In this document: piece after piece, positions 865 through 62,945 of the stretch
Position numbering within the stretch: position 1 is the stretch's first letter
How the letters are laid out: every line of letters begins with the position of its first letter
Assembly (NCBI GenBank): GCA_037447655.1
Contig: JBBHKE010003565.1
Span: 1 to 64,000, forward strand
Length of the DNA: 64,000 nt
From: Zygnema cylindricum
Taxonomy: Eukaryota; Streptophyta; Zygnematophyceae; Zygnematales; Zygnemataceae
Direction: 5' to 3'
Notes under the pieces: model-generated
Told to the model about the DNA's origin: nothing
The model's database searches: none
The model's input: only the letters and a program-made list of their open reading frames with translations
Made by a program: the position numbers and the translations under genes

Positions 865-869
865 CTCCC

Positions 870-1381
870 TGTAACAAGGTTACAGAATTGGGTACTTAGT
901 GGCTGAAGCTAGGCTGCTATAGTTGCGATTTCAGAGCAGCGCAGTTGCGGTTCCAAAGCAGCCCAGCTACGATTCCGGACTAGCGCAGCATAGCAGCATA
1001 GCAACTTGGTAGCGCAGCAGCGCAGCATAGCAACTTAGTAGCGCAACAGCGCAGCATAGCAACGCCGCAGAATGTAGATGGAACTGTATAGTTCTTGAAG
1101 GAAGTTTTGGTTAGATCTCGGTTGGCCGCGAAGGTCCACGTGTACAGCTGTAAAGTACTAGGTTGACTAGCAGTTAGCTAGTTTAAATCGGCGAGTAGAC
1201 CTAGTGAATGGGACACCCAAGTAGACCTACACAGCTAGCGCAACCTTGTACTCTCTCTCTCAAGTAATAAAGCTTAACCTTGTATGTGAGTTCTGTGTAT
1301 TCCTGCTGTTGCTACGGGAAGATCCTTGGTGTTTTCCGCTGTGCACTGTAACGTGTTGTGGTGTATCTTGCCCCTTTTACA
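870..1381 (+). repeat. 5' LTR of the gypsy element
   Basis: The LTR is 512 bp, starting TGTAACAAGGTTACAG and ending CCCCTTTTACA. It contains a run of ~33 bp imperfect tandem units (GCGCAGCAGCGCAGCATAGC-like, about 940-1070), which explains the small length difference from the 3' LTR. AATAAA at 1266-1271 is a possible polyadenylation signal. Confidence 0.95.
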
Positions 1382-1382
1382 T

Positions 1383-1395
1383 TGGTATCAGAGCC
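1383..1395 (+). other. Primer-binding site, initiator tRNA-Met 3' end
   Basis: TGGTATCAGAGCC lies two bases after the 5' LTR. It complements the 3' end (GGCTCTGATACCA) of plant-type initiator tRNA-Met, the usual primer for plant LTR retrotransposons. Confidence 0.9.
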
Positions 1396-1414
1396 ATTAC
1401 CGTGACTTGACAAC

Positions 1415-2602
1415 ATGGATGAACACGGTGTATCCACTACAGAAATGTTGGCGCAAGTTCTCAGAGAGTTGGAAAGTGTGAGGTTACATAACGCGCAACT
1501 CAGTAACACTGTCACAGCCTTGGAGTCGCGTCTTGGGGAGCGACCTCATGGAGGCATAGAGCGAGACTTTCGGAGACCGAAATTAAGACTTCCTGACGAG
1601 TTTGATCCTGCAAGACACAAGAACCTTGACTCATGGCTATTCTCTATTGCAAACTATCTCGAGAATTTTCCTAGCCTGTTGGATCGTGAGAAGATTCAAT
1701 ACGCGGGTGGTCTTCTTAAAGGGGCAGCAGGGGCTTGGTGGAGAACATTGGTGGAGGACGATGAGTTACCGACCGTCTGGGCACTCTTCGTTCAACTTCT
1801 CCGCGACACTTGGCAGCCCGTCAACACGGTGAAGGCGGCGAGAGATAAGATCGCAGTATTGAAGCAACGAACTTCAGTGATGGAGTTTACGCAAAGGTTC
1901 TTGGAGTGCAAGGTTCAAATACCTACGATGACGGAGGATGAAGCCGTGGATCGTTTCGTGAAGGGGCTTAAGTCGTCTATTCGTAGAGATGTGGAACAAT
2001 GGCTTGCCCGGGAAAGCACGACTCCTCCTCTCTCAGCAATCATCCAGTTTGCGGAGCGGACCGATTCGGTCGACTTTAACCTCCAGAGACCGTATCACTA
2101 CGGGTCAAGCAGTAGCGGAGGACATCGACGAGACGAAGGTCCAACCCCTATGGAGCTCGACGTAATTAATGATGATAAGGAAGCGGTCAATGTCCTGCGG
2201 AGAAAGAAGAAAACTACCAAGACAAAGACAAATGACTTATCCCCCGAGGAAATACAGCGGAGGAGGCAAAATGGACTATGCTTCCAGTGCAATTCTCCCG
2301 ATCACATGGCTCGAGAGTGTCCAAAACGGAAAGGCCCCAAAAAGGGAAAACTTACCGTTATGAGGTTAGCCGGTGAAGGAGGAGACCCTTTCATAATTCG
2401 GGGTCAAATAGGAGTGAGTGCAGCTAACTTCATGGTGGACTCCGGAGCATCGGGGAACTTCATTAACGAGGCGACGGTGAAAAGGTTGAAATTTCCTCTT
2501 GTGGTACTAAAGGATCATCAGTCGGTACAATTGGCCGACGGCCGTTCCTTATCCATTACCCATCGTACCCCGAGGTTACGATTCAACATTGGGAAATTCT
2601 GA
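1415..2602 (+). CDS. gag: Gag with start of protease, Ty3/gypsy
   Basis: This 395-codon ORF is the structural Gag of the retrotransposon. It starts with a short coiled coil (residues ~10-45), followed by a retrotransposon Gag capsid domain (~55-225; LDSWLFSIANYLE, GGLLKGAAGAWW, FVKGLKSSIRRDVEQWL). A PTPMELD linker leads into a CCHC zinc knuckle at residues ~289-302 (CFQCNSPDHMARECP), which binds element RNA. The frame then enters the aspartic protease with active site D342-S-G (MVDSGASGNF). The ATG at 1415 is the first after the primer-binding site. The frame is lost at ~2595-2602 inside the protease, whose remainder (LWLQKWNPTIDWR) lies in another frame. Confidence 0.9.
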   Translation: MDEHGVSTTEMLAQVLRELESVRLHNAQLSNTVTALESRLGERPHGGIERDFRRPKLRLPDEFDPARHKNLDSWLFSIANYLENFPSLLDREKIQYAGGLLKGAAGAWWRTLVEDDELPTVWALFVQLLRDTWQPVNTVKAARDKIAVLKQRTSVMEFTQRFLECKVQIPTMTEDEAVDRFVKGLKSSIRRDVEQWLARESTTPPLSAIIQFAERTDSVDFNLQRPYHYGSSSSGGHRRDEGPTPMELDVINDDKEAVNVLRRKKKTTKTKTNDLSPEEIQRRRQNGLCFQCNSPDHMARECPKRKGPKKGKLTVMRLAGEGGDPFIIRGQIGVSAANFMVDSGASGNFINEATVKRLKFPLVVLKDHQSVQLADGRSLSITHRTPRLRFNIGKF

Positions 2603-4319
2603 TGGTACGATACACTTCATATATTACCTTGTGGGACCATGAGGTATTCTTGGGGAAGCTGTGGCTGCAAAAATGGAATCCGACAATTGATTGGAGAATT
2701 GGCGTCATGAGAGTGAAGAAAGGTGAAGAAGAGTTCGAGGTAAAAGCGGGAGCGGCTGGTAACGGAGCGGAAGAGGGACGCCTGCTTTAAGCCTTACAGC
2801 TTAAGAGGGCACTCAAGAAAGGGGAAACGATTGGTATGGCGGTCGTCCAGCCAATGGAGGAGGCGAAGGAGGAGATTCCGGAAGAATGGAAGAAGAAGGA
2901 CCCCGACTTCGTCTCCAAAGAAAGGGACGACGTTGGAAAGACTTCCGATGAGGCCCCGGAGGTCATGACAAAACTTCTCGAGGAGTACGCAGATGTATTT
3001 CCCCCGAAGCTCCCAGAAGGATTACCTCCAAAGCGCGAAGTATACCATAGGATAGAGCTTGTTTCTGGAGCTGTATCCCCGGCTAATCGGATGTACAAGA
3101 TGAGCTACACCGAATTGGACGAACTCAAAAAGCAACTCGCGGAGTTGGTCGAAGCCGGAGCAATCGAACCAAGCAAGTCACCGTATGGAGCCCCCGTTCT
3201 CTTTGTGAACAACAAAGATGGAGGTTTCCGTATGTGTGTAGACTACCGAGTGTGAACAAATTAACAGTAAAGAATGCGTACCCCCTACCAAGGATCGACG
3301 AATTGTTGGATTGACTTCGAGGCGCCAAGTATTTTTCGAAAATAGACTTGCGTAGCGGCTACCACCAGATCAGAGTTGCCGAGGATGATGTGGAGAAGAC
3401 GGCGTTCAGGACTCGATACGGTCATTTCCAGTTTCGGGTAATGCCGTTCGGGTTGACTAACGCACCGGCGACCTTTATGCATTTAATGAATTCCATCTTT
3501 CGGCAATATCTGGACGCTTTTGTGATCGTCTTCTTAGATGACATATTGGTGTATAGCCGAACGGAGGAAGAATATATGAAGCATTTACGGACGGTTCTAC
3601 AAGTTCTTCGGGAGCATAAATTATACGCAAAAAGAAGTAAATGTGACTTCTTCAAGGAGAAGATTGATTTTTTAGGCCATGTGGTGAGCCGGGACGGAAT
3701 CGCGGTGGATCCAAACAAGACTAGGGCAGTTAAGGAGTGGCCGCAGCCGGCGAATGTTACGGAGTTACGAAGCTTTCTCGGACTATGTTCCTATTATCGA
3801 CGTTTTGTCGAAGGTTTCGCAAAAATCGCTACACCACTCACGGAATTGCTCAAGAATGATGCGCCCTATGATTGGAAAGCGGCGTAAGGAACAGCCTTTA
3901 ACACTATAAAGGAGCGGTTGGTTACCGCCCCTGTGTTAGCTGTTCCCGATCCGGACTTATCTTGGACGATAATCACTGACGGTAGCGATATGGCGATTGG
4001 AGCGATCCTTATGGAGGATCAAGGAAAAGGCCTTCAACCCATTGCTTACGACAGTCGCAAACTAAAGGCGGCAGAGTTGAACTGGGCTACCCATGAGAAA
4101 GAAACAATAGCTATTATTAATGCGTTGGAGGTTTGGAAGTGTTACGTTCAGGGGAAACGGATCACGGTTATCACGGATCATCACGCCTTACAATATCTCC
4201 AAACCCAACCGAAGTTGTCCAAGAAACAAGTGCGCTGGATGACGTTTCTGCAAACCTTTGGTCTGGAACTTACTATTGAATATAAGCCAGGCAAAACGAA
4301 CCCGGCGGATGCGCTGTGA
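2602..4319 (+). pseudogene. pol: Protease C-terminus, reverse transcriptase and RNase H, broken
   Basis: Conceptual pieces cover the end of protease (2602-2790), reverse transcriptase (2836-3887) and RNase H (3918-4319). RT landmarks are [18 protein letters not shown], the catalytic FLDD (~3532-3543) and [10 protein letters not shown]. RNase H landmarks are ITDGSDMAIGAIL, HEKETIAI and ITDHHALQ. Breaks are a TAA at 2788, a frameshift after CVDYR (~3250), a TGA at ~3312, a TAA at 3885 and a TGA at 4317 where ADALSRR is expected. Catalytic residues remain, but no continuous polyprotein can be made. Confidence 0.92.
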
Positions 4320-5502
4320 AGAAGACCTGACGTCGCTGCGCTTGTAGCGGAGCAACGACCGCAAGCACCGCAGCAGGGGAACGGAGACTCTGTTAGGGAG
4401 AAAAGCGCAGCGTTGACCGAAGCGCAAGATCCGAAGCTCAGCGTAGTCACCAGTACGGTGCAAGTGGACGAACAGTGGTTACGACGGATAAAGGCCGCCT
4501 ACAGCGACAATGATTCACTAAAGGAACTCATCAAACAGAAAGTTCTCGTTCGAACCGCCAATGATATGTGGCGGTAAAAAACCGAGTAAGAGAACACGGC
4601 TTTATGTGCCATCAAATACAGCACTTCGTCACACGATTCTTCAAATGAGTCACGACGAGCCGCTCAGTGGACATTTTGGTCGGGATAAAACAACCGCACG
4701 TATCGCTGAGGCGTATAACTGGCCAAACATGACTCGGGACATTGCAGAATATGTCCGGACGTGTGACTCCTATAATAGAAACAAATCGGATTCAGGGCAA
4801 CAAGGTCTGTTACACCCCCTCCCAATACCATCTGTTCCTTGGGAGGCGATCTCGATGGACTTTATCGTGGCCCTTCCTCGGACGAAGGAGGGCTACGACT
4901 CAATCTTCATCGTCGTGGATTACCTGACGAAAATGGCACATTTTCTACCCACGTCCACTACAGCTACTGCACGAGATATTGCAGACTTATTCTTTCGGGA
5001 AATATTCCGCCATCACGGACTTCCAAAAAAAATCGTCAGCGACCGCGATCGTAAGTTTGTGAGCCACTTTAGGCAAAATCTGTTTGCGCTATGTGGCACG
5101 CGGCTGGCCATGTCCACAGCCTACCACCCTCAGACTGATGGTCAGACTGAAAGAGTGAATCGAACGTTGGAGGAAGCATTGCGGGCTTATGTATCGGTAC
5201 ACCAAACAGATTGGGTGAACCATTTAACGACAATCGAGGTAGCATACAACAGTGCAGTGCACTCATCCACCAATGCTACGCCATTCTCACTCAATGGACG
5301 ACAGCCCACTCTTCCACAAAACTTATTGGTTGCGGACTGCCAAACACCGACAGCTATAGACTTTGCCAAAACTTTGCAAGGAAACCTAGAAGAGGCGGCC
5401 AAGGCGCTCCAAATGGCTAAGGATCGTCAAAAGTCGCAGGCCAATGCTCACCGAAAAGACACCATCTTCTGTGTGGGGGACAAGTTCGCCTTAATATGGT
5501 AA
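4320..5502 (+). pseudogene. int: Integrase, Ty3/gypsy, disrupted upstream
   Basis: The core is a 313-codon ORF starting at 4561. The zinc-binding region reads H..H then CDSYNRNK, where the second cysteine of the usual CxxC is tyrosine (TGT to TAT). The rve catalytic core follows with all three acidic residues visible: SMDFIVALP, IVSDRDRKF and GQTERVNRTLEEALR. The linker from RNase H (4320-4560) contains a frame change. A further frame change at ~5496 separates it from the C-terminal GPY/F-like and chromodomain part. Confidence 0.9.
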
Positions 5503-5945
5503 ACCTCTCCTTGCCGGGTGCCCTCTCTAAGAAGTTGGCACCAAAGTTCACGCGCCCATTCACAATTCTTTCCCGTGTGGGCGACGTAGCGTACAAGTTG
5601 GATATCCCGACGGCCTGGCATATCCACAATGTTTTCCATGTTTCCCTTCTTAAACCATTCCGCGATCCTGATTTAATGTTCCCTAATCGACTACAACATA
5701 CTCCTTTACCACCTGTTCGAGGAACCTCAAACGAGTTTGAGGTGGAAGAGATCCTTCAGTCACGTCACTCTCGGAATTCCAACTCCACTCAATACTTGGT
5801 GCGTTGGAAGGGTTACGGTGCTGAAGACGACTCTTCGGTGGACAAAATGGATCTGCATTCCCCGGAGTTGCTGCGCTGGTTTCAGCGGAGTGAGGACACT
5901 CAGCCTTACCGGAGGGGCAATCGCTGCGGCCGCAACAAAGGAGCG
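5496..5945 (+). pseudogene. Integrase C-terminus with chromodomain
   Basis: This frame begins with a GPY/F-like module (KLAPKFTRPFTILSRVGDVA, then IHNVFHVSLLKPFRDPD) and continues into a chromodomain at ~5736-5885 (FEVEEILQSRH, YLVRWKGYGAEDD, LHSPELLRWF). Chromodomains at the end of gypsy integrases direct insertion to particular chromatin. The aromatic position normally filled in 'enTWE' is not aromatic here (DDSSVD), so histone-tail binding may be altered, as in some plant chromovirus groups. The ORF stays open to 6143, but I see no domain beyond ~5900. Confidence 0.85.
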
Positions 5946-6381
5946 AATCGCAATGGCGCAACCAATCGCAATCATAATGGGGACGCGGCAAATGACCGCA
6001 GCGAGGATGTTACCACACCGCAGCGCCGTAGCAGCGCAGCCACCGCAGCGCAACATGGTCACGATGACGTCAGAGGATCGCAACACCATCGCTGCACTGA
6101 CAGGAAAGCGCAACGGCGCAATTATGTTTCACTATGTAGGTGACGACGAACCCTCGGTTTCGCCGCAGCAGCGCAGTTTTCTAAATGTTCGACACTGCGA
6201 TACCCTCGCACGCTGCGACGCTTCGCACAGTCCAAAAGTGAAACCCTCAACCCCCGTGAATACCGCCGCCATTTGTCCTCACGACAAACCTAGTCTCGAC
6301 AGCTTGAAAACTGCTTCTCTCCGCACAATCAGTTTACCTTCGCTTTTGGAGCTACCAGAATTGTCTGGTTCAGCAGTGTCT

Positions 6382-7629
6382 ATGGCGTCGTCGTCCTCTC
6401 CACCACCGAAAAGGAGGAGACTGGTACGGGTGGGACAAGGAGACCCGAACCGTCTCGAGAGATTGCTAAGGGCGGCGGAGGCCATGGTGGAAGCAAGCAG
6501 GCGAAGAGAAGTAGAAGTGGAGCCGGAACCGGAGGAAAGCGCCAGTAGCGAGGCAGGACCGGCAGAAACCAGTGGAGGGGAGGGGTCAGAAAACTCACAG
6601 GACCCTGAATACACCCCAACTCGGGAAGGTGATCAGGAATTTCAAGCGGATCATGAGCTGTCGGAGGCGGAGGAACCGGAACGCGAACCAACGCCTCCGC
6701 CAATTGAGGAGCGCGCCTCAGATCTGGAGGTGATGCGGGACCCAAACAAGGAGAGCACCGCGGACGAGCAGTCGTCTGAAAGCGCGGAGAGGAAGGCAGT
6801 GGAACTATACCCCAGTGGTGACGATGTGTTTTTATTACGCAAAAACCGAAGAGATTCAGAGGAGGAGAGTGAACAGGGAGAGGAAATTCTCGACTACCTC
6901 TTCCCAGTACCGGTCGACACCCAGCATCCGGACATCGCCTTCAGCTTCGCCAAAAGGTTTTATTGGAACCCCTCGGAGTGGCCCGAGGAATGGCGTATAG
7001 GGAAGCCTGGAGATCCTATCCGTATCCTTGCCAACGTTCCCTCACACCCAGCGTGGAGTTTCATGAGGACCAAGGACCTGGGGAATAATCATAAAGGCTA
7101 TGTGCAACTGAATCCTCACACCTTACCGTTCGTGGAAGTGGTAGAGGACAACTACAGGTACAGGATTGATGTTCCTGGGTTACTCCGCTATTATCACCCG
7201 TGGGATGTCCGCCTCCACGACATCATCTCTCGAGCGGAGGTCACCCCTGAGGTGCGAGTACTCAAGCTGGCCCGAAGGAATGCTCTACAGCGGGCCCGAG
7301 CTGCAAGGAAACACGCGTCCTTCAAATTACGGAAGGTACCTCGGTGGGAAACGGCGGACGAGGAACCAAAAGAACCCAGGATTCCGGCCCCCGAGGAGCC
7401 TGCATCGGCAGACGTTCCGCAGCAACCCAAAGTACCAGACATTGAGGAAGGGGAAAATCAGGTTCGGGAATGCATCACTCGGAGGCGGTTGGCAGCTGCA
7501 GATCACCACATCGCGTTACTGGAGACCCGATGTGAACAGCTCCAAAATCAACTCGATAACCTTCGCCAGGAGTTCGAAGAGTATCGCGAGGAAACATATG
7601 ACATACTCCAGCAATTGCTGTTTCCCTGA
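6382..7629 (+). CDS. Intact additional 3' ORF, unknown function
   Basis: The 415-codon ORF starts at the ATG of MASSSSPPPKRRR; the open frame extends further 5' but there it overlaps the chromodomain frame. The N-terminus has a basic nuclear-localisation-like stretch (PPPKRRRLVRV). An acidic, Glu/Pro/Ser-rich region follows (residues ~45-165), then a folded-looking block (~170-290; DYLFPVPVD, FAKRFYWNPSEW, FMRTKDLGNNHKGYVQLNP, LLRYYHPWDVRLHD). The C-terminus is a clear coiled coil (HHIALLETRCEQLQNQLDNL onward). It lies between integrase and the polypurine tract, where some plant gypsy elements carry extra ORFs. It is unbroken although pol is not. A degraded homologue of the central block lies at 57361-57634. 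I do not recognise the family and assign no function. Confidence 0.75.
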   Translation: MASSSSPPPKRRRLVRVGQGDPNRLERLLRAAEAMVEASRRREVEVEPEPEESASSEAGPAETSGGEGSENSQDPEYTPTREGDQEFQADHELSEAEEPEREPTPPPIEERASDLEVMRDPNKESTADEQSSESAERKAVELYPSGDDVFLLRKNRRDSEEESEQGEEILDYLFPVPVDTQHPDIAFSFAKRFYWNPSEWPEEWRIGKPGDPIRILANVPSHPAWSFMRTKDLGNNHKGYVQLNPHTLPFVEVVEDNYRYRIDVPGLLRYYHPWDVRLHDIISRAEVTPEVRVLKLARRNALQRARAARKHASFKLRKVPRWETADEEPKEPRIPAPEEPASADVPQQPKVPDIEEGENQVRECITRRRLAAADHHIALLETRCEQLQNQLDNLRQEFEEYREETYDILQQLLFP

Positions 7630-7659
7630 GTCTATCAAAGTTCAGCGGGACGCTGAACC

Positions 7660-7674
7660 TTTAGTGGGAGGCAC
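7660..7674 (+). other. Polypurine tract of the gypsy element
   Basis: TTTAGTGGGAGGCAC directly precedes the 3' LTR, the position of the plus-strand primer. The AGTGGGAG core is also seen before other LTRs in the window. Confidence 0.75.
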
Positions 7675-8176
7675 TGTAACAGGGTTACAAAATTGGGTAC
7701 TTAGTGCCTGAAGCTAGGCTGCTATAGTTGCGATTTGAGAGCAGCGCAGTTGCGGTTCCAGAGCAGCGCAGCTGCGATTCCGGACCAGCGCAACATAGCA
7801 ACTTGGTAGCGCAGCAGTGCAACATAGCAACTTAGTAGCGCAGCAGCGCAACATAGCAACGCCGCAGAATGTAGATGGAACTGTATAGTTCTAGAAGGAA
7901 GTTTTGGTTAGATCTCATTTGGCCGCGAAGGTCCACGTGTACAGCTGTAAAGTACTAGGTTGACTAGCAGTTAGCTAGTTTAAATAGGCGAGTAGACCTA
8001 GTGAATGGGACACCGAAGTAGACCCACAGCTAGCGCAACCTTGTATACTCTCTCTCAAGTAATAAAGCTTAACCTTGTCTGTGAGTTCTGTGTATTCCTG
8101 CTGTTGCTACGGGAAGATCCTTGGTGTTTTCTGCTGTGCACTGTAACGTGTTGTGGTGTATCTTGCCCTTTTTACA
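7675..8176 (+). repeat. 3' LTR of the gypsy element
   Basis: This 502 bp LTR aligns along its length with 870-1381. It has a shorter internal GCGCAGCA-type tandem run and scattered substitutions. It ends TTTTTACA and is followed by the CTCCC target duplication (8177-8181). AATAAA is at 8061-8066. Confidence 0.95.
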
Positions 8177-9500: not shown

Positions 9501-9961
9501 AATCTCTTTCTCCTGTAGTCGTGTTAGTGTGTGCAAAAAGGAATTGTCATTTGTTTTCGAAAAACTAACAACTTGTTCTTAATCGTAATTTTTGAGGATA
9601 AGGCATAATCTTGTGTAGGTTAGCGGAATTCTGATTTTCGTATGCACAACCGTGGACAAAAGTTTCCAGTTTCAACAGCCTTTTTATATTTTGGACAATT
9701 TCTATGGCCATGACCTTTTTCATTACAATAATAATATACATCAAGTCTTTGAGGATACTAAAGCTGACTATTCTAAAATTTTTCTTTTTGAAAATTTTCT
9801 ATATTAAAAGCTTCAGCTTGTCTATTACCTTTAAGAGATTCCTGACTAGACTCTTCATCTAACACATACTGAATTGCTATCGCTAGATTCCACTCAGCAT
9901 GTGGTAATTTTTTTAAATTGTCAGAGGCTCCTTTATATACCCTAGTAAGCCCTTTCATTAA

Positions 9962-10187
9962 TGTTGATTTCCAAGAAATCGGGATTCAGCATGTCCCACA
10001 CTTGGGAAAATTGAGCCGGCCAGGGTTTGAACGTGGGACCTTTCACTTCAGCTGCCAACGCACTACCACTGTGCCACCAGCTCGATGTAGAGACTGCCGG
10101 GTCCGTACCTATATATTACATGCATTTCGAGTATGGATATTCCATATTCTACCCTATATTGGACCGGCTTCATGTGCCAATCGAACA
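9962..10187 (-). repeat. TRIM LTR, last in transcription order
   Basis: 226 bp, aligned end to end with the other two and with somewhat more substitutions. Its tRNA-like unit is at 10013-10083. Confidence 0.9.
10013..10083 (-). ncRNA. tRNA-like unit, LTR copy in 9962-10187
   Basis: Same layout. The T stem is damaged (CCACG opposite CCTGG) and the B box reads GTTCAAACC, so this copy is the most decayed. Confidence 0.55.
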
Positions 10188-10244
10188 CACCCCGTCACAG
10201 GGAAGCCGGTCAAACCATCCGATATCCCGCTGGCTCCGATACCA

Positions 10245-10471
10245 TGTTGATTTCCAAGAAATCCGGGATTCGACATGTCCCACACTTGGGAAAATTGAGC
10301 CGGCCAGGGTTCGAACCTGGGACCTTTCACTTCAGCTGCGAACGCACTACCACTGTGCCACCAGCTCGATGTAGAGACTGGCGGGTCTGTACCTATATCT
10401 TACAGGCGGTTCGAGTATGGATATTCCATATTCTACCCTATATTGGACCGGCTTCACGTGCCAATCCAACA
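10245..10471 (-). repeat. TRIM LTR, middle copy
   Basis: 227 bp, the best preserved of the three. It is bounded on both sides by 57 bp internal regions, so it served as the 3' LTR of one unit and the 5' LTR of the next. Its tRNA-like unit at 10297-10367 has a perfect B box. Confidence 0.9.
10297..10367 (-). ncRNA. tRNA-like cloverleaf inside the TRIM LTR (best copy)
   Basis: The 71-base minus-strand sequence folds as a complete tRNA. The acceptor stem is GAGCTGG/CCGGCTC (7 pairs, one G-U), followed by T8 and G9. The D stem is GCAC/GTGC with loop AGTGGTA. The anticodon stem is TTCGC/GTGAA with loop AGCTGAA. There is a 5-base variable region. The T stem is CCAGG/CCTGG with loop TTCGAAC. The A-box region (TGGCACAGTGGTAGTGC) and B box (GGTTCGAACCC) are near-canonical RNA polymerase III promoter elements. 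TTTT follows two bases after the unit, a Pol III termination signal. Base 33 is G rather than U, so it is probably not a decoding tRNA. It is conserved in all three LTRs (also 10013-10083 and 10581-10651, where the B box is GTTCAAACC). Confidence 0.75.
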
Positions 10472-10528
10472 CCCCCCGTCACGGGGAAGCCGGTCAAACC
10501 ATCCGATATCCTGCTGGCTCCGATACCA

Positions 10529-10755
10529 TGTTGATTTCCAAGAAATCCGGGATTCGGCATGTCCCACACTTGGGAAAATTGAGCCGGCCAGGGTTTGAAC
10601 CTGGGTCCTTTCACTTCAGCTGCGAACGCACTACCATTGTGCCACCAGCTCGATGTAGAGACTGGCAAGTCTGGACCTATATCTTACAAATAGTTCGAGT
10701 ATGGATATTCGATATTCTACCCTATATTGGACCGGCTTCACGTGCCAATCCAACA
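10529..10755 (-). repeat. TRIM LTR, first in transcription order
   Basis: 227 bp; on the minus strand it starts TGTTGGATTGGCACGTG and ends GGAAATCAACA. It holds the tRNA-like unit at 10581-10651. Confidence 0.9.
10581..10651 (-). ncRNA. tRNA-like unit, LTR copy in 10529-10755
   Basis: Same 71-base layout as the middle copy. One substitution weakens the B box (GGTTCAAACCC) and others fall in the D loop and variable region. The stems are retained. Confidence 0.6.
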
Positions 10756-11184
10756 ATTAACAACAATGCTTGTTGGTCATTAAGAAAAGTGCCACCTGAA
10801 CTAGCATTTTCTACAAATAATTTTCTCAAACCATAATAGTATTCTGCCATAAAACCATTGGAGTACTTATACTCCCAAATTTTTCCAGTTGCAATCATTT
10901 GGTGTGGAACACTAGTCTTCGTGTATATGTATTTTAATGACTTCCAAATTTTTGACGCCTTTTTAATTTTAATACGTGCCATTCCAAGCTCCTTTGAAAT
11001 AAGTAATTTGATGATGTGGAGACACTGTATTTTTTTCTTTTTCCAGCTAGCATCCGATTTAGCCAGAGATCAATCCAAAACATCCATAAGGTTTATATTC
11101 ATAAAACATAACTCCACCATATCCGCCCAATAGATATAATCCGACCCGTCAAAGATAGGTATTCTTGAGAGAGGGCATGTAACC

Positions 11185-25819: not shown

Positions 25820-27364
25820 TTTTTTTTATGCTAGGTGTCACCAACAGATCTACGTCCTTCGAAACGCAAAACGAGAAGGAGTGGATCATTGACCCCGGTG
25901 CTTCGCATAATGTACGTACGGACGGCACACTTTTCCATAAAATGCGCGCCTTAATTGTACCGAAAATCATTACCGTCGTAAGTGGTCAAGTTATTTCAAT
26001 TGGCACAATTGGTATTGTAGGACTTCACTTGATTTTGCTAGGTCGAAATGGATCTGACGAATCTCTGAGATTGAACTATTGGACGTGCTCTATATTCCGG
26101 GCGGCTCAGCGAATCTTTTGAGCGTACTCCAAATCCAGAGATCTGGCGCCAGCGTGTACGCCTATTCTACCATCAAAATTGTAGGATCTGATGGAATTAC
26201 GATCGGTGCGGAAGAAGTGTCTAACGCATTCTATGGTTGTCTTTTATGGAAGCGTCCAAAGTCAAAGCGTCATGATGACGACATCATTAGACAGATCGCC
26301 AAAATTAAAGGAGATTTGACGCTATAGCATCATCGCATGTGCCATATGTTAGAACAAAATCTAAAACGTATGATCAAAGTCGGTTCCACGCGCGGTCTAG
26401 ATTTGACGTAAGGAGAAAAAGTCAACGGTTGTGACGCATGTAGTTAATGGCGTCAGATCCGCAAATCCCATCCTACCAAAGACACTAATTTTCAATCGAG
26501 GCATCCACTTGAAAAAATACACGTGGATCTTTGTGGTGACGTGAAGCTAAAAAGCTTGGGGGGGAACAAATAGTCGACGACTACTCCAGATTTACTTGGG
26601 TATATCTACTAAAATATAAATTTGATGCATCCGCAAAGTTTGAAAAGTGGCATGTTATGGCCGAGCGACAACGTGAGAGAAAATTAAAGGCGGTTCGGTC
26701 TGATAATGGCGAGGTGTTTAAGGCATTTGTTTCTTATTGTAAGAAATGGCGGATTAAGCAAAAATTTACGGCATCATACTCACCGGTATCGAATGGAATC
26801 GACGAGTGTAAAAATCGAACACTTCAAGAAATGGTGCGCTCGATGATTTACGGATCGGGAAGAAAGGAGTATCTATGGGGAGATGCAATATTAACGGCTA
26901 ATTATATTTGTAACCGTCGACTTACCTCTATTTCGGGAAATAAGACTCCTCACGAGTTATGGTATGGTCGAAAACCCTCGTTACATAATTTACGAATTTG
27001 GGGGTGTCAGACGACGGTGTATATCGAATCCGTAAAACAACGAGGCAAATTTCCTTCTCGTAGTTGGTCGGGAATCTTTGTGGGGTATAGCTCTAAAGGG
27101 AGTTTATACCGGGTTTATGATCAAATTCGTCATGTAATTGAAGAGAGTCATAATGTGAATTTTCATGAAGATCTCAAAGTTGTTATTTCTCGTTCCGAAA
27201 AATTCTTTACTAATCATGATTTTCTTCAAGTAAATGAGACACTCTCTTTTCCTCATCTCGATGATTCGGATTCCGAATATGAGGCGGATCCGATCGTCAA
27301 TATTAAGAGGGGGAAAGCTAATTCCGAAACTCATCCGGAATTAATTAATTTTGACGAGATCTGA
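25820..27364 (+). pseudogene. Protease and integrase of element C
   Basis: The protease motif is EWIIDPGASHNV (~25880-25915), with DPGA instead of the common DSGA. Pre-integrase and the first integrase catalytic region are broken (HHRMCHM, EKIHVDLCGDV, ~26330-26560). The 235-codon ORF 26657-27364 has AVRSDNGEVFKAF (second Asp), NGIDECKNRTLQEM (Glu retained) and WGCQTTVYIESVKQRGKFPSRS. Stops at 26323 and ~26570 and a frameshift before 26657 make it non-functional. Confidence 0.85.
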
Positions 27365-27379
27365 AGTGGAAAGTCTCAA

Positions 27380-29182
27380 ATGTCTTCGGACACTCGCCGA
27401 TCTAAAATTTCCGAATCTTTGAGTGCTTCATTCCACGAGGAAGAAACCGAAATCGAACAATCCGCAAATGAAAAAGAAAACGACATCCCATTGAGAAGGA
27501 GTCAACGCGAGAAAAAGGGGAAGAAACCGGATCGGTTATCATTTGATCGCAAAGGTGGAAATATCAAAAAATCCAATTATTTTATCTCGGCGGCCTCGGA
27601 GGAGGCATTTATTTTGTAGCAATCATTAACCGAGAATATGCCCGGCGATCCCCAATCTTATGCCGAGGCACGAAGTTCTATGGATTGGGAGGATAAGTGG
27701 AAACCGGCATGGGAGAGAGAATTAATAAAACTTTTGAGGAGGTGAGTTTACCGGAGGGGAAGAAGGTGATTGATGCTAAATGGATATTTACAACAAAAAC
27801 TGGTGCTACAGCGGAGATAATTAAATATAAGGCTAGATTGGTGTGTAAGGGTTTTCAACAAGTAGAGGGGGTTGATTATTCGAAAACTTATGCACCAGTT
27901 GTTAAGTTTGATTCTTTGAGAATGATAATTGCTATTGCAGCCGCGCGGAATAAACACACACATCAGATGGATGTAGAAACAACCTTTTCAAATGGAGAAT
28001 TAGAAGAGGAGGTCTATATGAAGGTGCCTGAGGGTGTGCCTTCAAAGGGAGAAAAAATATGGCGGCTGCGAAAATCCTTGTACGGAATAAAACAAGCGCC
28101 GAGGAAAAGGTACCTTTGTCTTCATAAAGTACTTACTAATTATGGTTTTGTTTGTACAATTTCAGATACCGGAGTTTACGTGAAAGGAGAGGGAAAGGAC
28201 CAAATTATTTTTTCTGTGTATGTCGATGACTTCCTAATGATTAGACTTCCTAATGATTAGTGACACGTTGTCTGTTATTAATTAGTTAAAAGATTACCTA
28301 AGCATATATATTAAAGTTAAGCATTTTGGAGAAGTAAGGTTAATTTTGGGGATAGAAGTCATAAGGTCCAACGAGAATGTAATTAAATTAAGTTAACCTC
28401 AGTACTATAGAGAGGTCTTGACTAGATTTGGTATGATTAGCGCGAAACCTGTCTCGACGCCATTAGATCCAAAAGTACCATACAGAAAGTACGAAGAGGA
28501 AGAAAATGTTTTAACACCATACAGTGAAGCAGTTGGTAGTTTGATGTATTTAAGTGTAGGCACGCGTCCAGATATTGCGCCGGCAGTGTCAGTTATTAGT
28601 CGTTATTGTAACACTCCAAAAAAAAATCATAGGGAGGCAGTGAAAAAAATATTTCGCTACTTCGCTGGTACAATCGATTTTGGCTTGGTATATACTTCCA
28701 AACGAGACTCTTTGCAGTGTATCGGTTACTGCGACGCAGATTGGGGAGGAGATTTTGACAGTGGAAAATCCACGTCAGGATACGCTTTTATTTTGGGCCG
28801 CGCGGCAGTATCTTGGAGTTCGCGACTCCAACCTACGGTTGCGCTAAGTTCCACGCAATCAGAATATATGTCTGCGTGTCATTCTGGGAAGGCGTCTGTG
28901 TGGATCAAGGAAATGCTTGGTGAGTTGGGCGTGTTAATTGGCTGCCTGCAAATTTTTGTTGACAGCATGAGCTCGAAGGCGCTCGTGAAAAATCCGGTCT
29001 TTTACAAACGTACAAAATATATACACATCCAGTGGCACTTCGTAGAAGATTTGGTTGCGGCAAAGGAGATTGAGTTTATGTACGTGTCCACTTTGGAGGA
29101 GGCCGCAGATATGTTGACTAAAACTGGGGTTTATGACGTACTTTTACGTGGAAGACCTAAGTTAGCATTGTTCTCAATTTAA
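27380..29182 (+). pseudogene. pol: Reverse transcriptase and RNase H of element C
   Basis: The linker ORF (27380-27619) leads to RT at 27697-28260 (DAKWIFTTKTGATAE, KARLVCKGFQQVEGVDYSKT, HTHQMDVETTFSNGELEEEV, SLYGIKQAPR, catalytic YVDD at 28219-28230). A short 16 bp repeat (CTTCCTAATGATTAGA) creates a stop just after it. RNase H at 28418-29182 keeps CIGYCDADWGGD, TQSEYMSACHS and FVDSMSSKALVKN and ends TLEEAADMLTK. The segment 28260-28417 is frame-broken. Confidence 0.88.
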
Positions 29183-52914: not shown

Positions 52915-53778
52915 TCACTCCAACGTATACATGTTCATGAACCGTAGAGGTTCGGAACTCCAAGCACCACTAACATTTTCCCGAACCTGTTTGATTTTTC
53001 CGAAGGGCCAAGGTTGGTAATAGTACTCCGAGAGTACATTACTCAGATTTTTCCACGCGTCACTCATTTTTCGTTTCTTGATTTCATGAGTGATAGTGCT
53101 CTCCTTAGGTTCCTCCTCCTTAGCTTTTTCTGTACCACTTTTTGTACCTGCAAGAAAATTAGTTAGACCTGCCTTTCTCGCGCAAAGACTTAGCTTGTCT
53201 CTTCCTACAGCCTTAGTTAGCATATCAGCTGCATTCTCTTTATCAGGAGTGTAGACAAACTCCACTGCTTCCGCTGCAATTTCATTTCTAACAAAGTGAT
53301 ACCTCATAGAGATGTGTTTAGACTTAGGATGGTTTACAGGATTCTTAATTAGTGCTAAACAACTTTGGCTGTCTGTAAAAATTTTGGTCCTCTCAGTCTG
53401 CAAAAAACCTATCTCATTCAGGAATGCTCTCATCCAAAGGACCTCTTTTACAGTTGCGGCTGCGGCCATGTATTCCGCCTCCATAGTGGAGAGTGCCACT
53501 GTTTTCTGGAGCTTGCTCGCCCAACTCACGCTTCCATCTCCAATATTACACAAGTAACCACTCGTGGACTTCCTTGTGGTAAGGTCACCTCCCCAATCTG
53601 CGTCGCTGTAGGCATAGATGTTAACGCTTTCCTGTACTCCTCCCAATGTCAATGTGTAGTTTCTTGTTTCTTTTAAGTACTTCAACACCCTTTTAACCGC
53701 CATCCAATGTTGCTTGCTTGGCCTGTGCAGGAATCGGCTTAGGATGCCGACGGCGGTGGCGATGTCGAACGAGTGCAA
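52915..53778 (-). CDS. RNase H of element D
   Basis: This 287-codon minus-strand ORF covers the end of RT and RNase H. Landmarks are AVGILSRFLHRPSKQHWMAV, YSDADWGGD (first Asp), KLQKTVALSTMEAEYMA (Glu), FTDSQSCLALIKNP (Asp) and KHISMRYHFVRNE. It ends in the usual ENAADMLTKAVGR. The catalytic set appears intact. It degrades the RNA template during reverse transcription. A frame break near 53790-53960 separates it from RT. Confidence 0.88.
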   Translation of the reverse strand: MHSFDIATAVGILSRFLHRPSKQHWMAVKRVLKYLKETRNYTLTLGGVQESVNIYAYSDADWGGDLTTRKSTSGYLCNIGDGSVSWASKLQKTVALSTMEAEYMAAAATVKEVLWMRAFLNEIGFLQTERTKIFTDSQSCLALIKNPVNHPKSKHISMRYHFVRNEIAAEAVEFVYTPDKENAADMLTKAVGRDKLSLCARKAGLTNFLAGTKSGTEKAKEEEPKESTITHEIKKRKMSDAWKNLSNVLSEYYYQPWPFGKIKQVRENVSGAWSSEPLRFMNMYTLE

Positions 53779-53967
53779 TTCATTCCGTAAATGAGGGCTC
53801 CCAGTGCTTCGGGGTAGGGGGCGTCCACTTGTTCCCCTTGTCCCTCTTTAGACTCCTCAATCAGCTTTTCCCCAAGTTCCAAAGGGGTGCTGACTCCTCT
53901 TCCATCCTCCAAGCTAAACCTGGCAAGTAACTCTCCAATGTACTTTCTTTGAATTAAGTGTATTTCT

Positions 53968-54876
53968 CTATTTGCTCTCTGTAATAACCTCTATGCCTAG
54001 GACATACTTTAATTCTCCGAGGTCTTTCATTTCAAATTGACTCCTTAGCATATCTTTTACTTTTGCTATATCATCTTTGGTTTTGCCTAGGATAATCAAG
54101 TCATCTACATAGATAGCAATTATAATGTTCATTTCGGCATTGTAATAAACAGAGTGATCTGACTCAATTTTTACGAACCCTTGACTTTGCAGGTACTCAT
54201 CAATCTTAATGTTCCAAAGTTGTGGAGATTGTTTCAATCCGTACAGTGCCTTGGACAATTTACACACTTTGTTCGGGTTCATGAGGTCTTCGAACCCTTC
54301 GGGCTGCTCCATATACAGTTCCTCCTCCAGTTCGCCATGAAGGAACGTCGTCTTCACATCCATCTGCTCAATTTCCAGGTCGAGGATGGCGGCCAGTGCA
54401 AGTAAGGTGCGTATGGAATTATACCTTACAACTAGAGCGAATGTTTCTTTATAATCAATGCCTTCCTTTTGAGTGTAACCCTTGGCTACTAGTCTTGCCT
54501 TGTAGCGATCGATGGTTCCATCTGGATTTCTTTTGATTCGAAAGGTCCATTTGCTGCCAATGGGTTTTCTTCCCTGTGGCAAGTCTTCTAATGTCCATGT
54601 CTTGTTTTGCAGAATGGACACCATTTCCTCATTAACTGCGGCCTTCCACTTTCCCCCATCCTCACCGTTCAGTGCTTGGTGGAGAGTTAAAGGCTCTTCG
54701 GCTTGAGCCATCTTGGCGAACTTTTTCCTTGGGGCGCTCGTGGTATCATACCACTCTCCAAACTTTGATGGAGGTTTTCTGGCCCTGCTACTGCTAGCCC
54801 TTCCTATGGGCACTGAGGTAGGGTTTTCCTCTACGACCTTTTTCTTAGTTTCTTTAGCTACAGTCACTTTTTCCAT
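53968..54876 (-). CDS. Reverse transcriptase of element D
   Basis: This 302-codon minus-strand ORF has a linker (RASSSRARKPPSKFGEWYDT), then RT: GSKWTFRIKRNPDGTIDRYK, RLVAKGYTQKEGIDYKETFA, QMDVKTTFLHGELEEELYME and SKALYGLKQSPQLWN. The catalytic IYVDDLIIL is at ~54118-54098. Compared with the family, FALVVRYNS replaces FAPVVRYDS and KTTFLHG replaces KTAFLNG; these fit C-to-T and G-to-A transitions. The ORF itself is unbroken. Confidence 0.9.
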   Translation of the reverse strand: MEKVTVAKETKKKVVEENPTSVPIGRASSSRARKPPSKFGEWYDTTSAPRKKFAKMAQAEEPLTLHQALNGEDGGKWKAAVNEEMVSILQNKTWTLEDLPQGRKPIGSKWTFRIKRNPDGTIDRYKARLVAKGYTQKEGIDYKETFALVVRYNSIRTLLALAAILDLEIEQMDVKTTFLHGELEEELYMEQPEGFEDLMNPNKVCKLSKALYGLKQSPQLWNIKIDEYLQSQGFVKIESDHSVYYNAEMNIIIAIYVDDLIILGKTKDDIAKVKDMLRSQFEMKDLGELKYVLGIEVITESK

Positions 54877-54993
54877 TTCCTCAGTTGTGGTAACCTCTTT
54901 CTCATTGATTTCACTCTCGCTGTTTGTTTCTTGTGCAGGTGGTGAATTTTCAATTTCAGTTTCAAGAACGTTAGTTTCACCAAGGGATTCGTT

Positions 54994-57389
54994 TCATTTA
55001 TTTGCCTCCTCTTCAGCAGACTCATTGTCGCTCGGTGACCAGTCATCAAACGAAGGGGAGTAATTTTCCCCTTCCTTTCTCCCACTGTTGCCATGCACCT
55101 CGTTCCTTGCCAGTGTTTCTCTCTCTGCAAATTTCACATTTTTGCTTATCATGATGGTCCGAGATTCAGTGTTGAAGATTCTGTAGGCTTTTCTGCTTTC
55201 TTCGTAACCTACAAATATTCCTTTTTTTTGCTTTGGGGGCCAATTTTCCTCCTTTGTTTGCATGGTCATGAACGTATGCTCGGCTTCCAAACACTTTCGG
55301 GTGAGAAATGGTTGGTCTAAATCCATGCCATTTCTCAAACGGATTTGCATTGTCTAACACAGATGTTGGACACCTATTGCGCAGGTACAATGCTGTACAC
55401 ATGGCTTCTCCCCAATATTCAGAGCCAATTTGATGGGTAGCCATCATGCTCAGTGACATTTCGTTGAGTGTGCGGTTCATCCTCTTCGCAACACCATTTT
55501 GCTGAGGCGTGCCTGGAGCCGTCAACTGATGTTTGATCCCTTCAAGGGTAAGGAAGCTTTTAAATTCTGAGGAAAAGTACTCCCCTCCATTGTTGCTTGT
55601 TAGTACAATGATAGACTTTCCGTGTTTCTTTTCAGCCATAGCCTTGTATTGCTTGAAACATTGGAATACCTCACTCTTGTGCTTGAGTAGGTAGATGTGA
55701 GTCATCCTTGAGTAATCGTCTATGAAAGTAACGACAAATCTTTTCCCACTGCAGGATTTGACCTTCGTCCGTCCCCACACATCTGAGTGGACAAGCTCAA
55801 GTGGCTGAGTAGCTCTTCTTCCTCCGTCTTTGGGAAAGGGAAGACGATGTGATTTTACCCAATTCGCAGCTGCAAGATTTGACCTTCGTCGGTCCCCACA
55901 CATCTGAGTGGACAAGCTCAAGTGGCTGAGTAGCTCTTCTTCCTCCGTCCTTGGGAAAGGGGAGACGATGTGATTTACCCAATTCGCAGCTACGACATGG
56001 ATCTGGTGAGTCGGTCACATTGTTGAGTCCTAGTCCGTGAACAAGCTGTCCTTTGACTAGTTTTCTCATACCGTTTGTGTGCAAATGTCCCAGTCTTCGA
56101 TGCCACAGCATTTGATTGTAGCTAGGCGTTTTGGTGTCTTGCTCATGCTTGATTGGCATCTCAGACTTCTCGACTGACATTTCCAGTTTCTCTCCATTCG
56201 CAGATCGTACATTAGGTGGATTCTCCTCACTTGATTTTGGGAGAACTGCGCTTGCGGCAAGTGCGAGGCCTCTGGGTTTTGGACTGCACTTCAAACGGTA
56301 GGTTTTGTCTACCATTCGTTCGCCTTCTGCAATTGTGACACCATTTCGCATGAGTTTGATTTTTCCATGCTTCTGCCACACCGGTGTGATGCCATTGTCC
56401 TTAGCTTGAGGAATAGAGTATAGATTTCTTTTGAAGGAGGGAACATAGAGCACGTTCTTGATGGTCCGTGGATGGATTCGGCCATCGACTAACGCCTCTA
56501 TTTCGACGTCTCCTTTTCCTGTGGCATATGCGCTATGGTTGTCTCCCATGAAGATCCGCGATGGAGCAATTTCGCGAAAGTTGGAAAACCACTCTCTCCT
56601 GAAACACATGTGCTCAGACGCACCAGTGTCCACCATCCAGTGATCGTTGCTGGTCGCGATGGAGGACGCCATCATTGCTTGTGAGGTGACGATCTCCTTC
56701 CCTTTTCCCTTCCCCTTTTTCAGTTTTGTCTCGTCTACTTTCCCATGTAATTTGTCATAGGAGTATTTCCGACAAACCGAGATGAAATGACCCGTCTTAT
56801 CGCAATAAAAACATTTTCTGTCTGTTTTTCTGTCACGATTTTGATCCCTCCTCTCCTTTTTGCCTGCAGCGTACACGGAGCTTTCGGCAATGGACTCACG
56901 GCTCGTCATAATTTTGGTGTTGAACTCGTCTTTGAGGAGCGCCTCAACAACCTCATTCCACTTCCATGAGTTTACATCTTTCTGATCCAGCCAGGTGAGA
57001 ATTGGTTTGTATTCCACCAGGAGGGAAAGACTGAGGAGGGTGATCTTCGTGTCATTAGGAAGTGTGAAGCCGATGGCCTCGGCTTCGGCCAGCAAATTGG
57101 CATAATATGAGGTATAAGCCTCCATAGACATTCCGTCCTGATAAATTGTTGTCATTAACGTCTTTCCCAACTTGATGCGTGCTGTCATCCCTGAAAGTTT
57201 GTGTGTAGTCTCCAAAGATGCCCAGATCTCAGATGATGTCTTAAGCCTTCCAGGAATCCCAGCGGAGACAAGGTATTTCGCCTTCCAGGAATCCCAGCGG
57301 AGACAAGGTATTTCGCCTTCCAAGGGAAAAAGGGGACATGGACGGGGAGAGTGAAGAGAAAGTGGAAACTCTCGATTACCTTTTTCCAC
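54994..57389 (-). pseudogene. Gag, protease and integrase of element D
   Basis: The 530-codon ORF 57389-55797 starts with antisense gypsy sequence, then true Gag from about 57310 (SSEIWASLETTHKLSGMTAR, SYYANLLAEAEAIGF). A zinc knuckle CFYCDKTGHFISVCRK lies at 56818-56766. The protease is WMVDTGASEHMCF and the pre-integrase LWHRRLGHLHTNGM. A 121 bp tandem duplication (55751-55871, 55872-55992) shifts the frame. Integrase continues in ORF 55921-55166, where TSNNGGEY replaces the usual SDNGGEY and GVAKRMNRTL replaces GVAERMNRTL, so two of three catalytic acids are lost. The integrase C-terminus is at 55350-54994 (KKGIFVGYEESRKAYRIFN). Confidence 0.9.
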
Positions 57390-57691
57390 TCCCTATCGAC
57401 ACACGGCATCCGGACTCTACCTTCAGCTTTGCCAAGTGCTTTTATTGGGATCCTTCGGAGAAGCTTGCATCGTGGCGCACATGAAAACCTGGGGACCCTA
57501 TTAATATTTTTGTTGATGTGCTGTCACACGCGGCCTGGAATTTTATGAGGACGAAGAACCTAGGGAATAACCATAAGGGTTATGTGCGGTTAAACCCTCA
57601 TACCCTGCAGTTGGTGGAGCAGGGAGACCATTAGAGCTTTCCGTTGTGCATTGTGGTGTGTTGTGGAGCATTTTTTCCCTTTTACATTTGT
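57335..57691 (+). pseudogene. Relict of the gypsy family: aORF block joined to LTR end
   Basis: The plus strand encodes DYLFPLPIDTRHPDSTFSFA, FYWDPSE, then GDPINIF and FMRTKNLGNNHKGYVRLNPH. This matches residues ~170-255 of the additional ORF at 6382-7629. It then jumps to CCGTTGTGCATTG...GTGTGTTGTGGAGCATTTTT and CCCTTTTACATT, homologous to the 3' end of the gypsy LTR. About 1 kb is deleted between the two parts, and an in-frame stop (TGA after WRT) is present. It is the only other trace of that family in the window. Confidence 0.82.
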
Positions 57692-59325: not shown

Positions 59326-60489
59326 TGTTGAAATGTATGTATTTTCTAAATCAGAATAGAGGAAAAAATAATAAGAGGAAGTCAGCAAAGGCAGCTTGCC
59401 TCTCGCTCCACTCTCCAAACCCCCACACTTGTCGCAGTCATTTAAGGTTGGAGAGGATGCTAAAGCCATGGCTGCCCATGCCGCTCAGCGAGAGAGACAG
59501 GCTGTAGTTTTTGGTAGGTTTACCAAAAGGGACTTGACGGACCTAGGATTTGACCCTTGTACTTGTTGTACGTAAAGAATCCGATAACTTGTAGCTTTAT
59601 CCTATAGTCTAGGATCAGTGCTAGAGTATATAGGATATGAAAATTATATTAACATGAACTACGCAATATGTTTCATTTAACTAAATACGCGACGCACTAT
59701 ACACAGAAATGGATTAGACCGCACGAATTCCGGACCTCACAAAATTAACGAAACAACATTTTATTTAGAGGGCAAATATTAAATGTCAGACTTCATCGAT
59801 CGGCCGTGGTGCGAGCCAGGACTTCGGAGTGGGCGACTTGGGTTTTTTCGGGCACCACCACTCTAGATGACACGTGGCAGGATCAAGGAGGTTTACGGGA
59901 TCTTCGAAACTCGAGATGACAATTCCGGACGTGACAAATGTCACAAAAAGGCGATGTGGAACATAGACCGTATAGAAATTTCTCCAGTACCTGTACTTTC
60001 TTGTACAGTACAATGTTATGACTAGTGTGTACCTCAGTACTAGGAGGCTTAGAGAGGGGTTTTAGGAGTTAAAATAATTTTGGTAGGTAGCCACCTCTCT
60101 CCCAAAGAGCATCTGTATAAATAAGCAAACTTTGCCATTTAATAACAACTCATTTAGTTGACCTATTTCAGTGATTCATTTTGCTTCAGACTCAGAGGAG
60201 TCCAGCTACACAAGGGTGTAGTCGGTCAAAGGTTTTGCATGCCAAGGTGGTTGCATTTCTTAGGGAAAGTCAAAGTGGGTGAATGAGTCCAAAACTCATA
60301 TTATAACTATGCATTCGTGGTGGAACAGAGCACAGAGAAAGTCTTATTTCAGAAGGGTGAAGCTGTATTCGGGTTTTGATTTTCATAAGGTCAGTCATTT
60401 GGGTTTGTATCAACTTGGAGTCGTCACTTTGTAGATAAGCTTCTTTCGAGCTACAAATTATATGGGGGAATGCACCCAATAGAATTGCT
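59326..60489 (+). repeat. 5' LTR of element G
   Basis: TGTTGAAATGTATG... The first ~497 bp is matched by 62448-62945. TATAAATAAGC at ~60115 is a plausible core promoter. The far end is placed by the adjoining primer-binding site. It carries the antisense SINE-like segment at ~59352-59600. Confidence 0.75.
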
Positions 60490-62447: not shown

Positions 62448-62945
62448 TGTTAAAATGTATGTATTTTAAAGATCTGAATAAAGGAAAAATTAATAAGAGG
62501 AGGTTAGCAAAAGCAGCGTGCCTCTCGCTCCACTCTCCAAACCCCCACACTTGTCATAGTCACTGAAAGTTGGAGAGGATGCTTGAGCCATGGCTGCCCA
62601 TGCTGCCCAAAGAGAGAGACATGCTGTAGTTTTTGGTAGGTTTACCAAAAGGTTATTGACGGACCAAAGATTTGATCCTTGTACCTGCCGTCCGTCAAGA
62701 ATCCGATAACAGATAGCTTTATCCTATAGTCTAGGATCAGTGTTAGAGTATATAGGGTACGATAATTATATAAACATGAACGACGCAATGTGTTTCATTT
62801 AACTGATTACGAGATGGATTGTACACGGAAATGGATTAGACGGCATGAATTCCGGACAGCACGGAATTAACGAAACGACATTTTATTTAGAGGGCCAATA
62901 TTAAATGTCGGTCTTCATCGAACGGCCGTGGTGCGAGCCGGGACT
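62448..62945 (+). repeat. Truncated 3' LTR of element G
   Basis: TGTTAAAATGTATG... aligns with 59326-59821 and breaks off at CGAGCCGGGACT, less than half the 5' LTR length. It also carries the antisense SINE-like segment (~62478-62715). Confidence 0.88.

Follow-up and report, generated by a model that had tools for sequence, protein, structure and literature searches.

The LTRs of a miniature retrotransposon in Zygnema cylindricum carry a tRNA-like unit with the boxes of an RNA polymerase III (Pol III) promoter, and we consider it probable that the element is transcribed from them. By structural criteria, the family is a new member of Helenus, the miniature LTR retrotransposons (TRIMs) with tRNA-derived LTR sequence named by Kojima in 2024, and its host lies outside the Helenus table in the available text of that paper (PMC10886601). 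We analysed a stretch of 64,000 nucleotides (the window; contig JBBHKE010003565.1, positions 1 to 64,000) and searched the host genome (352,776,454 bases in 2689 contigs).

Anatomy of the window element

Performing a repeat comparison, we found three direct repeats at 284 bp spacing within positions 9962-10755. On the minus strand they form the LTRs of a 794-bp element, ordered LTR-interior-LTR-interior-LTR (227/57/227/57/226 bp, limits read from the sequence). All three LTRs start with TG and end with CA, and the 5-bp target duplication ATTAA on both flanks was scored exact. These limits agree with the three LTRs of 226-227 bp, the two 57-bp interiors and the ATTAA duplication described in the earlier note on this DNA. 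The features are as follows.

10756-10760, no strand: target site duplication ATTAA, right copy (sequence)
9957-9961, no strand: target site duplication ATTAA, left copy (sequence)
10529-10755, minus: first (5′) LTR, 227 bp (repeat comparison and sequence)
10580-10651, minus: tRNA-like unit of the 5′ LTR (ARAGORN tRNA-Gln(CTG); Rfam 53.6 bits)
10575-10578, minus: TTTT behind the 5′ LTR unit, possible Pol III stop (sequence)
10472-10528, minus: first interior, 57 bp (sequence)
10514-10528, minus: primer binding site in the first interior, initiator tRNA-Met, 14/15 (sequence match)
10472-10482, minus: purine-rich tract GTGACGGGGGG ahead of the middle LTR (by eye only)
10245-10471, minus: middle LTR, 227 bp (repeat comparison and sequence)
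10296-10367, minus: tRNA-like unit of the middle LTR, box B GGTTCGAACCC (ARAGORN tRNA-Gln(CTG); Rfam 53.6 bits)
10291-10294, minus: TTTT behind the middle LTR unit (sequence)
10188-10244, minus: second interior, 57 bp, with primer site at 10230-10244 (sequence)
9962-10187, minus: last (3′) LTR, 226 bp (repeat comparison and sequence)
10012-10083, minus: tRNA-like unit of the 3′ LTR, two pairs broken (ARAGORN tRNA-Gln(CTG); below the Rfam gathering score)
10007-10010, minus: TTTT behind the 3′ LTR unit (sequence)
10761-11069, minus: insertion site, upstream side, piece of a Copia-type gag (PF14223, E 1.7e-7)
9776-9961, minus: insertion site, downstream side, continuation of gag by eye, no Pfam match

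At 14 of 15 bases, the primer site TGGTATCGGAGCCAG fits the 3′ end of a host initiator tRNA-Met gene (L115), and the odd base can form a G.U pair with this tRNA, in agreement with the tRNA-Met primer site first read in the interiors. Together with the TG...CA ends and the 5-bp duplications, it bears out the reading as a miniature LTR retrotransposon. We found the traits that define a TRIM, namely two LTRs, a primer site, a purine tract (by eye), a length below 1000 bp and no coding capacity, the 57-bp interiors being too short for protein genes. Judging by its flanks, the element is inserted into a Copia-type gag gene, of which the downstream piece was assigned by eye. Its neighbouring LTRs differ by 12 and 13 substitutions, and by this sequence divergence the window copy is an old insertion.

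A family of mostly two-LTR copies

Looking for more copies, as the earlier note had proposed, we counted tags across the genome with up to 2 mismatches, using the reversed pattern as control. The unit tag was found at 608 places, the LTR 3′ part tag at 532, the LTR 5′ part tag at 478 and the interior tag at 185 (control 0 in each case). The LTR tags exceed twice the interior tags, which points to solo LTRs; one such LTR (L070) has ATGAA on both sides, by eye.

We read 40 loci (the window, L002 and L009-L046; L001 and L003-L008 were omitted as duplicate places), of which 31 had both outer LTR ends and 9 were partial. Among the 31 complete copies, the 5-bp duplication was exact in 25, had one mismatch in 1 and was missing in 5. 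Re-paired flanks gave a mean of 0.8 exact duplications, with a maximum of 5, in 1000 trials. Two LTRs were present in 24 complete copies, three in 4, four in 2 (one of them, L031, disturbed) and five in 1. The two-LTR copies measured 511-515 bp (LTR 227-229, interior 57). By these counts, the three-LTR form of the window is a tandem variant of a mostly two-LTR family (24/31). Tandem forms are known for Cassandra, where they are argued to come from recombination or template switching (PMC7215508), and those of the present family may have arisen in the same way.

Neighbouring LTRs within copies differed by 0 to 30 substitutions, with identical pairs at several loci, and on the evidence of these identical LTRs some copies are recent insertions. 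The majority form accounted for 21 of the 80 full LTRs. At L067, four family LTRs lie in a run beside an inverted LTR, and their three spacings of 243 bp have a 17-bp spacer different from the normal interior. At L068, a copy of the element has inserted into sequence that looks, by eye, like the LTR of the window's Gypsy element.

A tRNA-like unit in each LTR

Each window LTR holds a 72-nt tRNA-like unit, and ARAGORN called all three as tRNA-Gln(CTG). Two of the three passed the gathering score of Rfam RF00005 with 53.6 bits each. The copy that falls short of it is the 3′ one, where one pair is broken in the anticodon stem and another in the T stem. The cloverleaf with all four stems, earlier seen in every LTR, is therefore present in the first two copies and damaged in the third. 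ARAGORN made a call in none of 2000 dinucleotide shuffles of the middle LTR versus 78 of 80 real LTRs (71 tRNA-Gln(CTG), 7 of other or unclear types, 2 without a call). The tRNA-like fold is beyond chance by this measure. The free energy of the three window units was no better than that of shuffled sequence (z -0.66, -1.18 and -1.27), which comes near to the outcome that the earlier note had named as refuting the fold. The fold check is favourable by Rfam (2/3) and ARAGORN (3/3) and unfavourable by energy. The minimum-energy fold was not the cloverleaf for the third window copy and for one unit of subfamily B (described below). Since free energy does not separate the units from shuffles, the case for the cloverleaf rests on profile scores and pairing.

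Comparing the unit with the box A and box B consensus, we found box A TGGCACAGTGG and box B GGTTCGAACCC intact in its common form. Both boxes, the TTTT two bases beyond the 71-mer and the G at position 33 are in the sequence as first described. As for the functional Pol III promoter by which a TRIMp3 is recognised, boxes and T4 are present and the promoter is predicted.

Performing the proposed comparison with host tRNA genes (20 read of 63 places listed), we found that the closest agrees with the unit at 51 of 73 positions. The unit is distinct from these genes, and a host tRNA or SINE was rejected as its recent source. In a search with the 72-mer, the 40 scored places of 1115 first-look candidates were all identical to the query. 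Four further loci from this list (L067-L070) proved to be LTRs of the window element family. A loose first look across the genome listed 24620 tRNA-like candidates, and tRNA-derived repeats may be frequent in this host. Predictions of tRNA genes would be inflated in such genomes, because ARAGORN reads 71 of the 80 family A LTRs as tRNA-Gln(CTG) and 8 of 8 subfamily B LTRs as tRNA-Glu(CTC).

The unit belongs to the LTR

The earlier note had held that family members lacking the cloverleaf would reveal a SINE inserted into one LTR lineage. To look for them, we picked 20 places with one tag and without another among the listed exact hits (100 places listed per tag). Of 12 places that carried the LTR 5′ tag, 8 have an LTR that runs on through the unit, two (L077 and L082) are truncated, and two (L075 and L081) are relatives with a divergent unit, which led to subfamily B. 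At 7 of 8 places that carried the unit tag the LTR is complete or largely so, and at L089 its first part is missing. At these 20 places, chosen to reveal it, no intact LTR without the unit was found.

We also asked whether the unit is conserved, taking alleles common to several loci as changes of the source copies and single-locus alleles as decay. In 101 LTRs from 55 loci, the unit showed 3 shared and 58 single alleles and the flanks showed 19 and 75 (p 0.0087, where shared means an allele in at least 4 loci). We ran this test in 16 settings, with a cut-off of 2 to 5 loci, with CpG in or out, and with or without 8 loci that had been found by the unit or its query (reduced set, 88 LTRs from 47 loci). 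Fourteen of them gave p values of 0.006-0.046 and two gave 0.11 and 0.14; neither the settings, as tests, nor tandem or related copies are independent of one another. In the source copies the unit shows some excess conservation over the flanks, shared changes being rarer in it.

A sister subfamily with a compensated anticodon stem

The subfamily B tag was found at 195 genome places (reversed control 1), and the better matches were 83-85% like the L075 query. We read four elements (L111-L114), which have the same plan as family A. L112 has identical LTRs and the 5-bp duplication TCTTG, L114 has the duplication AATTG, L111 has none, and L113, whose 5′ LTR is without the usual start, was unscored. 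ARAGORN called tRNA-Glu(CTC) in 8 of 8 LTRs of these elements, and 7 of 8 passed Rfam. At the two places that led to the subfamily, L075 and L081, which are relatives of it, the LTR 5′ part is repeated in tandem, each repeat being about 65 bp long.

The A and B units differ by 7 letters and one insertion, and 5 of the 7 fall in the anticodon stem. There, from A to B, T-A becomes C-G, C-G becomes G-C and G.T becomes A-T, with no pair broken. The two double compensatory changes fall outside both promoter boxes. When we placed 7 changes at random, at least 2 double compensations arose in 0.0014 of the trials, and at least 2 without a broken pair in 0.00025. Nine aligned units (7 distinct) scored 0.168 for covariation, where the mean of shuffles was 0.118; this score was attained in 2 of 500 shuffles, and sliding gave at most 0.054. 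By contrast, 326 of 500 shuffles had as many pairs changed on both sides as the units (2), and 474 of 500 had as many pair types. The identity between A and B was 90% in the unit and 82% and 88% in the flanks, a difference that is not significant (p 0.22).

The compensated stem is a lead and not a proof, because all its changes come from one evolutionary split. Its main rival, to which we give an even chance, is that the anticodon arm was exchanged for that of another tRNA or SINE. Any tRNA arm would bring a paired stem with it, and a single split with the remainder of the unit nearly identical between A and B is what such an exchange would leave. Against it, both arms keep the unusual G at position 33 in the loops AGCTGAA and AGCTCAA, and no such loop occurs in the 20 host tRNA genes read of 63 listed places. 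A sister subfamily with a compensated stem is new in that the available text of PMC10886601 does not discuss one.

Proposed transcription and life cycle

We favour, with good though not full confidence, a non-autonomous Helenus-type TRIM whose LTR unit provides an internal Pol III promoter. From the sequence we infer the use of Pol III, the RNA ends, the R region and the helper. Pol III would start a few bases ahead of the unit in the 5′ LTR, pass the short TTTT behind this first unit, cross the 57-base interior and stop at the corresponding TTTT in the next LTR. The resulting RNA would have a tRNA-like unit at both ends, and the unit would thereby be the R region for strand transfer, of roughly 80-85 nt. 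The host initiator tRNA-Met would prime reverse transcription. Copying and insertion, which leave 5-bp duplications, would fall to the enzymes of another, autonomous element that is probably a Copia.

In the sense strand, T runs of at least 4 occur only just behind each unit (checked in L012, the window and the B copy L112). Among the 94 LTRs (of 101) in which a script recognised the unit, CAA stands at -7 to -5 in 64 and T4 lies at most 8 nt behind the unit in 91. CAA is absent from the three window copies and from the four subfamily B elements read. In angiosperms, 36-45% of tRNA genes have CAA within 10 nt upstream, and four T is the shortest termination signal listed for plant tRNA genes (PMC11700998). 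Both are weak markers in this host, because only 4 and 9 of 20 host tRNA genes carry CAA (at -10 to -1; 2 at -7 to -5) and T4 (within 25 nt), respectively. Many high-scoring host tRNA genes (L091-L110) are without T4 in the following 25 nt and without upstream CAA.

The first TTTT should stop Pol III early, so that our model needs read-through. It is conceivable, though we hold it rather unlikely, that Pol III stops there and mainly yields a short tRNA-like RNA, the mobile full-length RNA being either scarce or a Pol II product. The TTTT two bases behind each window unit, at most 8 nt behind it in nearly all the recognised LTRs and of the shortest length listed for plant tRNA genes (PMC11700998), agrees with this. 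Copies with identical LTRs speak against it, because they indicate that full-length RNA has been made recently.

We regard as improbable an ordinary TRIM transcribed by Pol II from the LTR 5′ part, whose unit would be a passenger left by a SINE or tRNA that inserted long ago. TATA-like letters are seen by eye ahead of the unit in the window copies, and Kojima proposed a SINE insertion as the origin (PMC10886601). However, hundreds of copies and both subfamilies retain the unit, its boxes are intact in the common forms, and it has fewer shared changes than the flanks. Tandem tRNA genes or SINEs with an accidental LTR appearance, as three evenly spaced tRNA calls might suggest, are hardly credible in view of the TG...CA ends, the primer site, the 5-bp duplications at 25 of 31 complete copies, the 24 of 31 with just two LTRs, the G at 33 and the 51/73 agreement with the closest of 20 host tRNA genes.

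Relation to known elements

The earlier note had placed the element as the tRNA counterpart of Cassandra, and the tRNA-like unit with box A and box B in the LTRs agrees with this. It is not a new kind of element, having been described as Helenus (Kojima 2024, PMC10886601). Among the best-ranked matches in the open-licence literature, judged by title and start of abstract, we found no other description of tRNA-bearing TRIMs.

Helenus hosts are reported to be fungi, animals and one plant, Selaginella moellendorffii (PMC10886601). The trait that names the group, tRNA-derived LTR sequence, was found by ARAGORN in 78 of 80 LTRs and by Rfam in 2 of 3 window units and 7 of 8 from L111-L114. Besides this sequence, the window family shares with Helenus as reported a primer site and a purine tract, a tRNA body and anticodon that yield no functional tRNA, tandem arrays (in Helenus, reported from one family), and 5-bp duplications (fungal and plant Helenus; here 25/31 exact) (PMC10886601). 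Most Helenus families have box A TRGCY with YGG and box B GGTTC (PMC10886601); the present unit has GGTTC and TGG, and TGGCA in place of TRGCY. Its primer, the initiator tRNA-Met 3′ end, is reported for few fungal Helenus families (PMC10886601). The likeness is one of structural criteria.

Cassandra is likewise a TRIM with a Pol III promoter gene in the LTR and forms tandem LTR-interior-LTR-interior arrays, but its LTR carries 5S rRNA sequence instead of a tRNA-like unit (PMC7215508, PMC10853983). No 5S rRNA sequence was found in the window, where the Rfam matches are only tRNA. Ajax is also a TRIM with small-RNA-derived LTR sequence; unlike the window family, it carries partial 5S rRNA and is reported from two nemerteans (PMC10886601). 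SINEs, unlike the window family, are without LTRs or a tRNA primer site (PMC10886601). The tRNA-derived ones (SINE2) resemble it in being short and non-coding with a tRNA-derived internal promoter.

The present data add, in a streptophyte other than Selaginella, a Helenus-type family that numbers hundreds of LTRs, includes recent insertions and is divided into two subfamilies. It offers a system for two points left open in PMC10886601 as available. One is whether Pol III transcription is driven by tRNA units in the LTRs, and the other is whether the unit acts as promoter only or also as RNA.

Candidate helper and neighbouring sequences

The primer-site variant of the element, TGGTATCGGAGC, recurs twice in the 200 kb of host sequence examined (L052 and L053), both times beside reading frames that look Copia-type by eye. 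This favours a Copia helper without proving it, and the helper is probably an autonomous element of this type. In the host sequence searched, we found no autonomous element with more in common than the primer site. We rejected the window's Gypsy element (869-8176) as helper, since it has the canonical TGGTATCAGAGC and other LTR ends.

This Ty3/Gypsy element has LTR pieces 83-97% alike, gag with a zinc knuckle, an integrase, and its TGGTATCAGAGC primer site at 1383-1394. The integrase is followed by a 650-aa open frame (5677-7629) that has no Pfam match. Two decayed Copia elements (RVT_2, integrase and gag pieces) lie at window positions 26540-29182 and 52915-57392. A direct repeat of 300 nt, 87% alike and 3122 bp apart, was seen at 59326-59625 and 62448-62747.

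Protein searches with a Copia reverse transcriptase and an LRR gene of the host returned no close relative. At L049 we noticed a multi-exon GDP-mannose 3,5-epimerase gene that appears intact, its exons being in order; by this one gene the host is a streptophyte green plant, perhaps an alga. Among 120 listed proteins, the most similar by identity was a EukProt transcript (91%). In a tree of 24 rows, in which the moss and the named algae took no firm position, the host protein and this transcript grouped together (support 100/99) and fell outside both the angiosperms and the liverworts.
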